Assembly: GCA_028687645.1 (NCBI GenBank)
Contig: JAQTZQ010000012.1
Span: forward strand, 1 to 32,736
Direction of reading: 5' to 3'
From: Rhodocyclaceae bacterium
Lineage (GTDB): Bacteria > Pseudomonadota > Gammaproteobacteria > Burkholderiales > Rhodocyclaceae
Length of the DNA stretch: 32,736 nucleotides
Part shown: one piece after another, positions 27,007-32,443 of the stretch
Layout: every line of letters starts with the position of its first letter
Position numbering within the stretch: the first letter of the stretch is position 1
The notes under the pieces: generated by a model
Databases searched by the model: none
The model's input: only the letters and a program-made list of their open reading frames with translations
Told to the model about the DNA's origin: nothing
Position numbers and translations under genes: made by a program

Positions 27007-27447
27007 TTAGCCGTTGTTGTTATTGTTATTATTGTTGTTATTGTTGTTGCTGAATCCGATTTCGAACGTAGGCTTTGCTGCCGCCGCCTCAGCGCTGCCG
27101 GGCAGGGTTAAGAGCAGAGCGGCGGTGCCGAGCATGACCAGTTTGCCATTGCCGGCGTAGCTGTCGGCATCGATTTCCGAGAGTTTTTTGTGGCTGCACC
27201 AGAGCGCATGTTGCCGACTGGCGGTGGGAACGGGAATGGTGTTGACGGCGCGACTACCTTCTTTTCCGGTGTGGCAAAAAATGTTGCCGTCGCTGAAGAT
27301 GAGATAGCCCGATTTGTTTTCCGTCGCGATCAGCCATTTGACCAGCCGCTCTTCAATGGCGGTGCGCTCCCGTCCGTCATCCAGGCGTAAGGCATTGAGA
27401 AAACATTCGACCGTGTAGGCGGTGCGGGCGAGTTCGTCAGGGGCCAT
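27007..27447 (-). CDS. Poly-asparagine-tailed protein, candidate radical SAM substrate (RiPP-like precursor)
   Basis: I do not recognise this 146-residue protein. Residues 1-100 are a polar, probably folded region with Cys15, Cys58 and Cys84. Residues 102-124 are a hydrophobic Ala/Leu stretch ending PGSAEAAAA, which looks like an internal or late signal segment with an AxA cleavage site. The tail is KPTFEIGFS, then twelve Asn (134-145) and a final Gly. The Asn codons are mixed (8 AAC, 4 AAT), which argues for selection on the protein rather than triplet slippage. The ATG follows the radical SAM stop by 2 bases (TGATCATG), so the two are translationally coupled; a TTG two codons earlier is less likely. 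By analogy with GrrA and HxsA cassettes, the low-complexity tail would be the modified part. That is inference. Confidence 0.65.
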   Translation of the reverse strand: MAPDELARTAYTVECFLNALRLDDGRERTAIEERLVKWLIATENKSGYLIFSDGNIFCHTGKEGSRAVNTIPVPTASRQHALWCSHKKLSEIDADSYAGNGKLVMLGTAALLLTLPGSAEAAAAKPTFEIGFSNNNNNNNNNNNNG

Positions 27448-27449
27448 GA

Positions 27450-29255
27450 TCAAGCGTCCGTCAGGTAGTGAAACTCAAGGTTCTGGAAGGGCAGGTTGAT
27501 GGCCTGCACATGGTAGAAAGCGTTCATTTTTTGCTTCTGATAATGGTAATCGCGCAAATAGCCGGTGGTGACCAGCAGATTGTTGCGTACGCCACGCTGG
27601 AACAGCGGCGCATGCAGGGCGAGCAGCGGGGCCAGATCAAGCATCGCCCAGTGCTCACCAAGCGGGCTGTCACTCAGGCAGTTGGCGAAGCGTTGGTAGG
27701 TGAACAAGTGCGCCTGCTTGCTGCGTTGCTCGTCGCCGTAGACCACCGGCGTGTCGCGCAGCACCTGCAGGTAGACCGTGTTGCGCAAGGGTTCCGGGCA
27801 GGCAACGGCGAGTAGATCACGGCATAGGTGCAGGCTAATTTGGTCGCCCGGCAGGATTGTGTGGCAATCGCTACGGGCTCGCAGGATTTGCGATTCCAGA
27901 GCCACATATTCGCCGTTGATCTCCAGTTGCCAGGCGTCAGCCCGATAAAGTTCAACCAGGGTTGGATCGCCGGCAATCAGCGCGCGCAGGCCGTTTTTGG
28001 GCTCAACCAGATCACTGGGCAGGACGAGCGCTGCGGGTGCCGGTGGCGGCGCCGGCATGTTGATAGCCAACGCCGGGTGGGCGCGAGCGATGTAGTTGCG
28101 GGCGTAGGCGGCCTGGTCGTTGCCGGCAAGGGCTGGAAAACGTAGCGGGTAATCGCGGTAGAGCGCCTTTTGCAGTTGGCAGGTATAGGACTTGGCCTGT
28201 TGGCGCTGGAATTTAACCACCGCGCAGCCGCTGTGACACTGCGCCAGGTGACCGCAGTTGTGGCAGTCGTCGGCCAGGCCGAACTGCTGATGGATGGCGG
28301 AAATTTTACGGGCACCACTGGCAAGAATGGTGTCGATGGGGTCGGTATACACGTTGCCGTAATGAAACTCCGGCAGACCTTGCCCGCGTACACAGGAATA
28401 AACGTTACCGTCGCCTTGCAGCAGATAGAAGCGTTCGCCGCAATTGACGGCATTGGTGCAGTAGCTTGGGGTGAATTCGTCAAACCAGTGCCGGCGCAAG
28501 CCTTCCTCCAGTTCAGTGCCAGCGAAGGCGGCATTGAGGGCGTCGTAAAGTGCCCGTTGTGCCGCCTCGTTGGCTGGCGCCAGTGGATTGCCTCGGGCAG
28601 CGGTGTTGAGCGCCGAAGGAAAGGCGAACATCAGGTTCATCTGGTTCATGTCGAAACCGAGTTCGCGGTGGATGTACCAGATGTCGTCGATCAACGCCGG
28701 AATGTCGGCCAGATGCTCGGCGGCCAGCGTCGCTGAAATTTTCTTGGCGTGCGGGTAAGCGGCAAGGCGGCGCAGGTTATCGCAAGCCAGATCGCGCCAA
28801 CCCTTGCCGCCCAGGGTGCGGCGATGTTCTTCGTGCAGCTTGAGTGGCAGGTCGATGGAGGCGCTGATCGATACCTTGTGGTGTTCGAACAGGTCGTAGA
28901 GCGGTGCAAATTTGTAAAGATTGGTCTTGATGTGCGGCGCCAGCTTTTTGTGCCCGAGCGCCGTGATGGCATCGAAATGCCGGAGGTAATGCGCGCGAAC
29001 CAGGCTGAACAGTTCGTCGAGCACCGCTGCTGGCAGGGTTGTCACCTCGCCACCGTGCAGCGATACGTTGAAGGCCAGCACGCCGGCCTCGTCGAGTGCC
29101 GTCAGCGCGTGACGCAAGGTGGATGCGGCGCGGGCGCTATCTTCCTTGAGTTTTGCCTCGGTCGTCTGCGTGCCCAGGTAGCAGTAACTGCAGCCCAGGT
29201 TGCAAGCCAGAGTCGGCACGTAAAGGAGGTGGATGGGACGGCTAGGGAGGTTCAT
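27450..29255 (-). CDS. Radical SAM/SPASM peptide maturase with unusual C-terminal extension
   Basis: A 601-residue radical SAM enzyme. The 4Fe-4S/SAM motif CxxxCxxC is C18, C22, C25 (CNLGCSYCY), and the GGE motif is at 68-70. A SPASM domain for auxiliary clusters is visible: C266, C272, then C288 in GDGNVYSC, then C331, C334, C340, C344 and C359 (CHNCGHLAQCHSGC). This set is seen in anSME-like and RiPP-maturing enzymes that modify peptides or proteins. Residues 370-601 form an extra domain with a Pro/Ala linker and no motif that I know. It lies between a two-helix membrane protein (6 bp upstream) and the poly-Asn protein (2 bp downstream), which is the obvious substrate candidate. It is not clearly any named subfamily (GrrM, HxsB, XyeB, FxsB). 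Confidence 0.85.
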   Translation of the reverse strand: MNLPSRPIHLLYVPTLACNLGCSYCYLGTQTTEAKLKEDSARAASTLRHALTALDEAGVLAFNVSLHGGEVTTLPAAVLDELFSLVRAHYLRHFDAITALGHKKLAPHIKTNLYKFAPLYDLFEHHKVSISASIDLPLKLHEEHRRTLGGKGWRDLACDNLRRLAAYPHAKKISATLAAEHLADIPALIDDIWYIHRELGFDMNQMNLMFAFPSALNTAARGNPLAPANEAAQRALYDALNAAFAGTELEEGLRRHWFDEFTPSYCTNAVNCGERFYLLQGDGNVYSCVRGQGLPEFHYGNVYTDPIDTILASGARKISAIHQQFGLADDCHNCGHLAQCHSGCAVVKFQRQQAKSYTCQLQKALYRDYPLRFPALAGNDQAAYARNYIARAHPALAINMPAPPPAPAALVLPSDLVEPKNGLRALIAGDPTLVELYRADAWQLEINGEYVALESQILRARSDCHTILPGDQISLHLCRDLLAVACPEPLRNTVYLQVLRDTPVVYGDEQRSKQAHLFTYQRFANCLSDSPLGEHWAMLDLAPLLALHAPLFQRGVRNNLLVTTGYLRDYHYQKQKMNAFYHVQAINLPFQNLEFHYLTDA

Positions 29256-29261
29256 GGTGAA

Positions 29262-29729
29262 TCAGGAAATTCCACTCGTTTGCACGTCAGGAACTGCACG
29301 CCGCACCTTGTCGATCACGCTTTTCGATACCTTGTCGAATTTGGCCGCCTTGTTTTTGCTGATTTTGTCGGCCTTGCGGGCATTGGTCGGAAATTTCTCA
29401 CGTTCGAGCGTGAAATTCTGCTGGCTGAGGGTGGTCAGCGACAAGCGCCCGGCTGATTGGTCGAGCATGATGCGGGTGACATTGTTGAAATAAATCAGGG
29501 TGCTCCCGCAAATCAGGTAGCGAGGGCCAAGCAACAGCTTTTTGGTGGAGAAGAAAAAAACGATCAGAGCCAGCAAAAACAGGGGGATCGCCAGAGGCGT
29601 CAAGCGCAGCGCAAATTGCGCCAACAGCGCACCCAACAGCAAGACGGCAGCAACCGGGCGTTGTTTGGGATGGCGATAACCGGGGCCGTCATGCTTGTAT
29701 TTCCAGGTGGCAAATGGGGTGGTGTGCAT
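29262..29729 (-). CDS. Small membrane protein with two helices and possible bacterial PH-like domain
   Basis: A 155-residue protein. It has a basic N-terminus, two closely spaced hydrophobic helices (about 25-42 and 45-61, with a short turn), a beta-rich stretch (LLLGPRYLICGSTLIYFNNVTRIMLD) and a very Lys-rich tail (NARKADKISKNKAAKFDKVSKSVIDKVRR). Two helices followed by such a strand-rich part resemble bacterial PH/YcxB-like proteins, but the match is by eye. It is 6 bp before the radical SAM gene and 30 bp after the helicase gene, so it probably belongs to the same transcript. It may be a membrane anchor or export partner for the modified product. Confidence 0.6.
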   Translation of the reverse strand: MHTTPFATWKYKHDGPGYRHPKQRPVAAVLLLGALLAQFALRLTPLAIPLFLLALIVFFFSTKKLLLGPRYLICGSTLIYFNNVTRIMLDQSAGRLSLTTLSQQNFTLEREKFPTNARKADKISKNKAAKFDKVSKSVIDKVRRAVPDVQTSGIS

Positions 29730-29759: not shown

Positions 29760-32443
29760 TCATAGCAGCAATGCTTGCAACTGATGATCGATTGATTCCC
29801 AGCGTTTTTCCGTCACCATCACGAAGCGGCAGCGTCCGGCGGACAGTTCGGCCCACAAGCCGCCGATCAGGCGATCATCCTCGGCTCCCTGCCAACGATC
29901 AGCACCTTTGTACTCAACCGCCAGCACCACGCCGTCCGGCAGTTGGCAAAGGAAATCCGGGTAAAAGCGGCCGTCGGCTTTTTGCAGGAAGAAGGAGCTG
30001 CCTTCGCGGCGTACCAGATTGCGCACCCAGAATTTGATCCGCCCCTTTTGCGCCTGAATGTCCAGCCAGCAAGCGCATTCAAATTCCTCGCGGCTATCAA
30101 AATCACCGATGCGTCCGTAAAGGTGCTTGCGGAAATCGAAGCGGCCAAAGCGGCCATCGTAATCCCGGCTCGGCGCGTAGGCCTGCGGATGAAAATTGAA
30201 GGCATTTTCGGCGTTGACCGTAACCATCTGCCCAACGGCCTCATTGAGAAAGGTTTTTTGCCAGGCCTGCTGGATTGCTTGGCGGCGCAGTTGGCGAATT
30301 TGCGCTTCGATCAAATTACGGATCAGGAACTTCTGCAAGTTGGCCCGCGCCAGCGTGACGCCGTCAACTTCCAGAAAAATGCGCAGCCAGTGGGCAACGA
30401 AGGCCTGTTTATCGGCGTGCGTCAGCGACGGCTCCGGCAAGTTGCGGCACAGCCAGGCGGCCAGACGAACGTCAGTCCAATGGTCGGCAGGGTAAGTCAG
30501 CCCCAGGTCGCGCTGCAAATCTGGCAGAAAGCGCGACACCATGCGACCCGAAGCCGCATCCACATCAATCTCGCCGCCTTCCGAAATTTTCAGATTGGCA
30601 TCAAGCGCCTGCAAATCGTCAGCCGTCGGGCGGGCATCATAAAGCGACAACGCCCACGGGTAATCGAGCACTTCCGGGTCATCAAACAGGCGCAACTCGC
30701 CTTGCACGCGCAAAGCCAGTTGCGGCACGCGGAATGACTCGCCCAACTCGGCGGGCGTCTGGAAAAAAGCCACTGCTGTCGTGCGGCTGACTTCTGCTGC
30801 CTGAGCAATCGCCGTCACCGCGGCTTCAGACTTGACCGAGGTCTGCAGCACCGCCGATTCTTCTACGGTCAACGGCGTAGAAATGGTCAAAATATTGAGC
30901 TTGCCATCCCAACTCAATTTGTCGCGAACCGTTTTGGGAACAACTTTCAGATCAGGCTTTTCCGGCAAAGCCACCGTTACCGGCTGCACCGTGGCGCGTT
31001 CAAAATCAAGCCCCGCCTGTTCCTGTCGCGCTGCACTAACAAACTCGCCCACTTCGCGCCGCTCAAACCCGGCCCCGCTAACCAGCCGATCACGCAGCGC
31101 GCTGGCCGTTTCACTGAAGTTGTGCGAGACCACAAAAGCGTAAGACTGATTGAGCAAGCGGTTTTGCCGATGCCGCGCTTGCGGCTGGCGCAAAATGCGC
31201 CCCAGCACCTGCTCGACGGCAGTGGCTGAATGCAGCGACGCCATGCTGACCAAAATGTAAGCAAACGGGCAATCCCAGCCTTCGGCCAGCGCTTTTTGGG
31301 TAATCACAAACTTCACCGGGCAGGCCGGATCGGCGATGCCCAGCTTGAAATCCGCCTCAACCTGCTCCAGCCCCTTTTCCTCGCCGGTCGCGATGATGAT
31401 TTCCTCGGCGGGAATCCGCTGATTGCTCACCAGTTCGTCCCGCACCCGCGTCACATCCAGCGTTTCCACCCCCGCCCGGCGCGGCTCGGCCTGAATCAGC
31501 ACAATCGGCCGCAAATAAGCCGCGCCGCCGCGCTGCTCCTCCTGTGCCAAGGCGTGCAAAACATCGCGCCGCGCCACCGCATCGGCCAGGCATTGCTGCC
31601 AGTTCGGCTCGGTTTCCAGCAACACCGGCAGCTTGATCATCTCCTCCGCCTTCAACTCGGCGGCAGAAACGCTATGCAACACATTCGACGGCGTGCGCTC
31701 CAGGTCAGGGGTTGCGGTCAACTCCAAAATACCGCTCGGATTTAAACGTGCCAGCATGTCGAAAGCCAGCTCAGTGCGGCTGTTATGCGCCTCATCGACA
31801 ATCACAAAAGGCCGGCGCAAGCGCAGCACATTCGCCAGCGAAAACGGCGTCGTCTGCTCAGCCCCTTGGCCCTCGGTCAGCAAAGCCGCCCGCTGCCCCG
31901 GCGCCAAGTGCTCAAAATGATGCATCAGCGTACCGCTCGACTGGTACACCTTGCGGCACTCCTCCTCTTCCACCTGAAACGCCTGCCGCGTGGCAACGAT
32001 CACCACCGTTGCCGTATCCAGCGTCGCGCGGGTGATGCTTCGTCCAGATCCATCACCGCCACCGGCCCCGCCTCGCGCAGCGCCAGATGGTACGGATGCT
32101 GGCGGTTTTTCAAGGCGCGCAAGGTTTGCTCACGAATCGGCCGCGACGGCACCAGCCACAACACCACGCTATGCTCGCTGCGCAACAAATGCGTATTGAC
32201 GCGCGCCACACTCTTCGCCGCCAACCAGGTTTTACCGCCGCCGGTCGGCACGCGCAGACAAAAATAGGGCATCTCCGGCGCAAAGCCGGCCAGCGGACGA
32301 TACGGCAAGCTCAAGCCCCATAAACGTTCCGTCGTCGCCGAAAAGGCAACAGCCGGCGAGGGCAGTTCATGGCAAGCCTTGAAATAGCTTTCAACGCTGT
32401 CCAGCACTTGCATCTGGTAGGTTTTGGGGGTGAAGGCGGTCAT
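29760..32443 (-). pseudogene. Type III restriction-like DEAD/DEAH helicase-nuclease, split by a frameshift
   Basis: Two reading frames together encode one protein of about 895 residues. The first (32443 to about 32036) has motif I RVPTGGGKTW and ends its native sequence at VAVMDLDEA before running into a stop at about 32000. The second (from about 32036 to 29760) continues with ITRATLDTATVVIVAT. It then has DEAH (VDEAHNSRTE), TATPD, and ALAEGWDCPF with QVLGRILRQP. A C-terminal PD-(D/E)XK nuclease reads RFYPDFL...LAVEYKGAD. Restoring one base near 32035 (GAAGCATCACC read as GAAGCAATCACC on the minus strand) joins the frames. The architecture matches Res subunits and related stand-alone restriction endonucleases. 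It is a recent mutation or a sequencing error, since the rest is intact. No methylase gene is in the window. Confidence 0.85.

Follow-up and report, generated by a model that had tools for sequence, protein, structure and literature searches.

The stretch of DNA analysed here (the window: 32,736 nucleotides (nt), positions 1-32,736 of contig JAQTZQ010000012.1, assembly GCA_028687645.1, Rhodocyclaceae bacterium) carries on its minus strand, at 27007-29729, a cassette of three genes that encode, in the order of transcription, a hydrophobic protein of 155 amino acids (aa), a radical SAM/SPASM enzyme of 601 aa and a protein of 146 aa with an asparagine (Asn) tail (Table 1). An initial annotation had described three tightly packed open reading frames (ORFs), and all three are present as predicted. 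The intergenic gaps measure 6 and 2 nt, and the three genes therefore very likely form a single transcript. The start codon of the last gene is likely the ATG at 27447, 2 nt past the stop of the enzyme gene, while the TTG start given in the ORF list adds two residues. Its product, called the partner hereafter, closes on the Phe-Ser, twelve Asn and Gly that the annotation had read (...FEIGF-S-N12-G-stop).

Table 1. Features of the three-gene cassette, with positions in the window.
Feature	Position	Strand	Description or basis
155-aa conserved hydrophobic protein	29262..29729	-	residues 24-68 hydrophobic; C-terminal part charged and conserved
601-aa radical SAM/SPASM enzyme with extra C-terminal domain	27450..29255	-	ORF list, NCBIfam scores, alignment
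CxxxCxxC radical SAM motif (C18, C22, C25)	29181..29204	-	translation, alignment
SPASM region with eight invariant cysteines (266, 272, 288, 331, 334, 340, 344, 359)	28179..28460	-	alignment
C-terminal domain of the enzyme, about residues 376-601	27453..28130	-	shared by the 15 aligned family members
Partner of 146 aa with an Asn tail (proposed substrate)	27010..27447	-	N-terminal domain over about residues 1-100, then a linker that varies and S-N12-G
Tail codons: Ser, twelve Asn (a mixture of AAC and AAT), Gly	27010..27051	-	translation
Stop codon of the partner gene	27007-27009	-	sequence

The pairing of enzyme and Asn-tailed protein is constant. Nine further bacterial loci were found, in a scan of species genomes (L002-L006) and in samples of the order (L028, L029) and the class (L047, L049), and in all ten, window included, the enzyme gene is followed downstream by a gene for a partner of 133-152 aa that ends in an Asn run. 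The co-occurrence in several genomes that the initial annotation had proposed as a check was thus observed, and the outcome it had named as refuting, homologues of the enzyme without an Asn-rich neighbour, was not seen among the ten. The enzymes range from 86-87% identity to that of the window (L003) to 49% (L047) and 42% (L049, truncated by its contig end), and the hydrophobic upstream protein is encoded in all nine loci with enough contig (eight by alignment, L047 by eye). The Asn runs count 9, 11, 12, 12, 12, 12, 13, 14, 15 and 16 residues, with a Ser before and a Gly closing them; the L002 partner has an additional S-N3 block ahead of the run, and that of L049 ends in N15-GNNGNNG. Eight of the tails use 63 AAC and 32 AAT codons in mixed order, and when they are aligned from the C-terminus, 121 of 310 pairwise codon comparisons show a synonymous difference. 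As the two codons are mixed in differing orders, the Asn run is kept by selection on the protein, and not as a DNA repeat. The strand opposite these codons reads as a long Leu run (window 27014-27160, plus strand; L029:5219-5551, plus strand), so that a spurious poly-Leu ORF could be called there by automatic annotation.

Ahead of its tail, the partner is predicted to consist of two helices followed by five strands, with a predicted local distance difference test (pLDDT) score averaging 70-93 in ten-residue blocks over residues 1-100; residues 105-139 score under 50. When profiles were compared, the N-terminal domains of the L047 (105 columns) and L049 (52 columns) partners could be connected to that of the eight nearer ones. 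A fold search with the partner model gave no match at E < 1, and the eight partners scanned showed no convincing NCBIfam family (best E 0.097, in one member). The hydrophobic AxA segment that had been annotated ahead of the tail turned out not to be general: a hydrophobic stretch exceeds the threshold in only four of the ten partners and is absent by eye in L047 and L049, and we rejected it as part of the conserved system. Five of the ten partners have no F, W, Y or H within their last 25 residues, and none has a Cys within the last 35. The 155-aa upstream protein has no convincing Pfam or NCBIfam match; its hydrophobic region is consistent with a two-helix hairpin, in agreement with the two-helix membrane protein initially proposed.

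Judged by its NCBIfam scores (taken from the best 25 of 42 matches), the enzyme matches radical SAM/SPASM models generally, without fitting any curated family. It passes the cut-off of the general SPASM model TIGR04085 (40.2 bits, cut-off 27), and the DynA and PapB models are also among its matches. The best match, the anaerobic sulfatase-maturating enzyme (anSME) model TIGR03942, reaches 64.9 bits, far under its cut-off of 349.45, and the scores also stay under the cut-offs of the models for GrrM/OscB (TIGR04261, 54.4 versus 310 bits), HxsB (TIGR03978, 49.2 versus 370) and XyeB (22.3 versus 450) and far under those for FxsB, YhhB and AmcB. On these scores we rejected membership in GrrM, HxsB, anSME, XyeB, FxsB, YhhB and AmcB. 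The likeness to GrrM/GrrA and HxsB/HxsA that had been pointed out initially therefore holds for the gene layout, but not for family membership.

An alignment of 15 enzymes, ten bacterial and five from phages (L049 without N-terminal columns, as its contig begins inside the gene), contains exactly eleven invariant cysteines, namely the C18, C22 and C25 of the initial annotation and the eight of the SPASM region. The number and spacing of the latter are those expected of two auxiliary clusters, as in anSME, and no invariant cysteine is left over beyond these presumed cluster ligands. The auxiliary clusters of anSME are described as fully cysteine-ligated and are proposed to act as electron sinks in passages of PMC8326336. 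About 225 residues beyond the SPASM part align throughout the family, phage relatives included, and this C-terminal domain was not detected in 38 other radical SAM loci. The nearest solved structure is that of anSME, both by sequence (PDB 4k36-4k39, 5e-11, with a profile including the phage enzyme) and by fold (8e-5, TM-score 0.29 by query length, from a weak enzyme model); owing to the weakness of this model, no fold is assignable to the C-terminal domain. The radical SAM motif begins at residue 18, which leaves no room for an N-terminal recognition element (RRE, PqqD-like), in contrast to those maturases of ribosomally synthesised and post-translationally modified peptides (RiPPs) that carry one at this end. 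The six ORFs scanned around the cassette include a single radical SAM gene.

The strongest evidence added beyond the initial annotation is a second branch of the family, found beside the tail fibres of phages. Campylobacter-type prophages encode full-length relatives of about 31% identity, whose gene is the second one past that of the tail fibre. The window enzyme shares 32% identity with a protein of a plasmid-borne Campylobacter coli prophage, in a match that covers 98% of its length. A relative is also carried by the isolated phage CAM-P21 (L107), whose fibre ends STNNNNY; it is identical to the enzyme of L031, and in the phage collection the CAM-P21-type enzyme has just one full-length relative. 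Viral contigs scanned with the window enzyme alone yielded no relative, but profile scans of them gave 11 loci and then two more (L083, L085); a DNA pattern for the Asn run had no match in these contigs. We call such contigs Campylobacter-type as they resemble the C. coli record and CAM-P21, and Mu-like on the basis of their gene content.

In L031, the genes for the tail fibre, a middle protein of 211 aa, the radical SAM enzyme and a DUF1353 protein follow one another inside a contractile-tail cluster. The immediate neighbours of the phage enzyme have no Asn tail, and it is the fibre, one gene further up, that bears it. The fibre ends seen are STNNNNY, SSNNNNY, ATNNNNY, SCNNNNN, TGNNF, SGNNF, MGNNF and MGNNS, with T, S, C or G ahead of the run and mostly a closing Tyr or Phe. 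The middle protein was rejected as a homologue of either bacterial partner protein (hhalign probability < 1%). In L045 and L083 the enzyme gene looks interrupted, and sister prophages have intact copies. The phage enzyme corresponds in part to PHROG 1802 ("radical SAM domain-containing protein", with no function given), which matches the Campylobacter enzyme (6e-142) and residues 13-595 of the window enzyme (6e-39). The phrog_1802 profile matched 58 of 299 genomes and also 10 of 14 used as controls, and only the window's own, among the matches listed, ran beyond position 414 of 556; since it mostly picks up other SPASM enzymes, we did not use it for counts. The phage radical SAM profile matches the window genome at a second place (G000:C190:2399-3520), in a match that ends before the C-terminal part. 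Several radical SAM genes have been reported in virulent Campylobacter phages, according to parts of PMC2853527 and PMC12398825.

Sister prophages without the enzyme offer a natural control. Their fibres have a similar N-terminal part (75-100% identity over matched segments) and are followed by a 168-aa protein related to tail-fibre families. The fibre search gave 26 loci, from which we dropped seven (L050-L053, L058, L059, L074) that are contigs of already counted enzyme loci and two (L056, L057) that are cut inside the fibre, so that 17 controls remain. Three of these (L055, L061, L067) have only 0.6-1.3 kb downstream of the fibre, and the absence of the enzyme was judged from the other type of gene coming next; for the split fibre of L073 and for L036, whose contig starts inside the fibre, only the tip was counted. 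At least two Asn within the last five residues were found in 13/13 fibres with the enzyme versus 0/17 sister fibres without it, or 7/7 versus 0/4 clusters by tip similarity (Fisher p = 0.003). As a background, 2 of 156 other non-redundant ORFs in these loci (L083 excluded) have at least two Asn in the last four residues. CAM-P21 stands outside the 13, as does L085, whose fibre gene is of another type.

The enzyme-bearing prophages thus appear to have swapped the fibre tip, the middle gene and the radical SAM gene together, and the three seem to act as one exchangeable module (L054, L055, L060-L073 and L075 versus L035-L045 and L083). The slot is apparently the one filled by the H-fibre and Tfa-type chaperone of CJIE1-like Campylobacter prophages, a correspondence drawn from the 343-aa fibre and downstream gene that are also present in the enzyme-free controls; the enzyme-bearing sisters instead combine a different, Asn-ending tip with a different middle gene and the radical SAM gene. 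The C-terminus of the CJIE1-like H-fibre has been shown experimentally to be the receptor-binding part and to require the downstream gene, as described in a portion of PMC7882524.

Only two common elements were found between the bacterial and the phage branches, the enzyme with its C-terminal domain and the C-terminal Asn run, and on the simplest reading, therefore, the enzyme acts on the Asn run. From these sequence comparisons, we consider it likely that this SPASM family with its own C-terminal domain oxidatively modifies the C-terminal oligo-Asn of the bacterial partner and of the fibre tip. Two fully ligated auxiliary clusters without a spare invariant cysteine favour a net two-electron oxidation over an epimerisation, and as half of the bacterial tails have no aromatic residue or His and none has a Cys, aromatic cyclophanes and thioethers would not be general answers. 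In the mechanism that we propose, the three genes would form a chromosomal protein-modification cassette, in which the SPASM enzyme would bind the partner, probably through the family-specific C-terminal domain, and carry out repeated two-electron oxidations along the oligo-Asn run. The most likely site would be the C-beta or C-alpha of Asn, so that adjacent Asn residues would become crosslinked or a dehydro-Asn would arise, each event costing 2 Da, and the hydrophobic upstream protein would probably anchor or export the product. In Campylobacter-type prophages, the same enzyme family, accompanied by an unrelated middle protein, would modify the oligo-Asn tip of the receptor-binding tail fibre. 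The more comprehensive proposal, that one oligo-Asn-modifying family works in bacteria on a protein dedicated to it and probably linked to the membrane, and in phages on receptor-binding fibre tips, with which it travels there as an exchangeable module, has in our view about even chances of being right.

Several observations weigh against oligo-Asn as the substrate in both branches. The 97-kb viral contig L085 encodes an enzyme that is 31% identical to that of the window and 38% to the Campylobacter ones, and has no fibre ending in an Asn run. Just ahead of its middle protein and radical SAM genes lies a 34-aa Thr/Asn-rich ORF (L085:5268-5372) with a plausible ribosome-binding site, ending NCTNNSNH, which might be a small Asn-rich substrate or a product of chance. 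The phage runs are short (2-5 Asn) and often end with Tyr or Phe, versus 9-16 Asn and a Gly in bacteria, so that the two kinds of tail may not be treated alike. The enzyme scores under the Pfam cut-offs for Radical_SAM (20 versus 29.5) and SPASM (19.2 versus 21.5), a profile of the eight bacterial enzymes alone retrieves no solved structure at 1e-6, and the structure predicted for the enzyme is of poor quality (mean pLDDT 59). Only seven of the 13 enzyme-linked contigs shared the fibre search with the controls, and within that search the comparison is 7/7 versus 0/17, or 3 versus 4 tip clusters (p = 0.03, by hand). The prophage loci are closely related and hence represent few independent events, and it may be the middle protein, and not the enzyme, for which the fibre tip is conserved.

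Other functions of the run, and other chemistries, were weighed against its oxidation. The oligo-Asn end could be a recognition tag or flexible tail for an enzyme that modifies another residue or protein, for example the adjoining Ser, as in anaerobic sulfatase maturation. Such a role would fit with anSME being the best NCBIfam match and providing the nearest solved structures, and with the Ser directly ahead of the run in all ten bacterial partners; yet in the phage branch T, S, C or G occupies this place, so that the Asn run is the sole shared feature, and the anSME model is missed by far (64.9 bits versus a cut-off of 349). We regard this explanation as unlikely, though it deserves attention. 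A cyclophane linking an aromatic residue to Asn, as made by XyeB, GrrM or FxsB, is brought to mind by the final Tyr or Phe of most phage ends and by the Phe just ahead of the tail Ser in the window, and Asn is a partner in Trp-x-Asn rings. However, XyeB and other three-residue cyclophane enzymes have an aromatic-x-x target motif in the core, whereas the last 25 residues of five of the ten bacterial partners contain neither F, W, Y nor H, and the scores for XyeB, FxsB, GrrM, YhhB and AmcB lie far under their cut-offs, which makes a cyclophane very improbable.

Iterative epimerisation would convert alternate L-Asn to D-Asn without mass change, into a beta-helix-like tail as in polytheonamide; a homopolymer would suit an enzyme that walks along it, and Asn residues are among the targets of PoyD. 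Parts of PMC8326336 describe PoyD as acting repeatedly on its precursor, with a second epimerisation in vitro two residues from the first, but also describe a critical cysteine, the hydrogen donor, used by peptide epimerases. No such extra conserved cysteine as in PoyD and EpeE was found in the 15-enzyme alignment, where the three clusters account for every invariant cysteine, and we hold epimerisation to be improbable. That the run might simply be a neutral product of trinucleotide slippage beside an unrelated enzyme is suggested by the frequent origin of homopolymer runs and by a length varying from 9 to 16, but is hard to reconcile with the mixed AAC/AAT codons, the fixed C-terminal position and the presence in 10/10 loci, even where the enzyme is only 42% identical to that of the window; we give it hardly any credence.

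Compared with characterised systems, oxidation of oligo-Asn by this family would combine familiar and new elements. The cassette enzyme has the CxxxCxxC motif and SPASM cysteines of radical SAM/SPASM modifying enzymes and, in all ten bacterial loci, a conserved neighbouring substrate candidate. GrrM/GrrA (OscB/OscA) and HxsB/HxsA likewise pair a SPASM enzyme with a small neighbouring protein whose C-terminal part is of low complexity, but the partner of GrrM has Gly-rich repeats where we find an Asn tail. HxsB systems comprise a partner with His-Xaa-Ser repeats and a second maturase, HxsC; no such repeat occurs in the window partner, and the extra C-terminal enzyme domain sets the cassette apart from both systems. 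The layout of 3 + 8 cysteines is shared with anSME, whereas the window enzyme is about 200 residues longer at the C-terminus and no sulfatase was noticed among the ORFs read beside the cassette. A parallel for repeated action is TvgB, a single SPASM enzyme of Halomonas anticariensis that, according to parts of PMC9062424, repeatedly modifies the same residue in the repetitive C-terminal region of TvgA, making cyclopropylglycine with a loss of 2 Da; there the target is Val in TVGG repeats, and here we propose an Asn run. Section 4 of the same paper, which describes part of 22 putative pathways, names Aro-Xaa-Xaa-Asn and (Y/H)NR as targets and mentions no run of Asn. In the open PMC literature (titles and abstract beginnings as listed, for example for 15 of 202 or 15 of 32 papers), we found neither a radical SAM enzyme with an Asn-run substrate nor a tail fibre modified by a radical SAM enzyme. 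A genome of the same genus (G017, L025, minus strand, 2147-2479) offers a low-complexity target candidate of a different kind: there, the neighbour of another radical SAM enzyme is a protein with NW-rich repeats, QWFNWQNWGNWNNWPNWRNWGNWFNR, at its end.

The enzyme is rare among sampled genomes. It was found in its own and two other genomes of 399 in the order sample, where the partner profile matches the same three, in 3/369 genomes of the class sample, own included, and only in its own genome in the phylum sample (1/398 at E 1e-25). A search among relatives gave matches at E 1e-3 in 19 of 100 genomes, which besides the own genome were only partial matches of 24-33% to other radical SAM enzymes. 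Such a thin and scattered distribution suggests that the cassette has spread horizontally. As to the surroundings, checked in some loci, the cassette adjoins creB (L002, downstream), creB-creC (L005, downstream) or creD with a NagZ-like gene (L003, upstream); these cre genes belong to an envelope-related regulon, which we did not use as evidence. In the window, the next ORF downstream on the same strand (26839-25565, minus, 424 aa) resembles a tyrosyl-tRNA synthetase. The ResIII helicase model is matched in part by each of two overlapping ORFs, 29760-32006 (only weakly) and 32000-32443, which may be a single gene that a frameshift or an error in the assembly has split.

SPASM-type modification of a ribosomally made protein is of a known kind; what we propose as new are the type of substrate, the enzyme domain and the phage branch. 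As a run of one ordinary residue is the only common feature of two otherwise unrelated candidate substrates, the chemistry is directly testable. If the proposal is true, Asn runs would join the targets of radical SAM enzymes, and a function would be given to a phage enzyme that has had no assigned one (PHROG 1802 in part). It would also mean that a phage receptor-binding protein undergoes radical SAM modification, and that phages chemically alter the fibre tip with which they choose their host, a change that host prediction based on sequence ignores.

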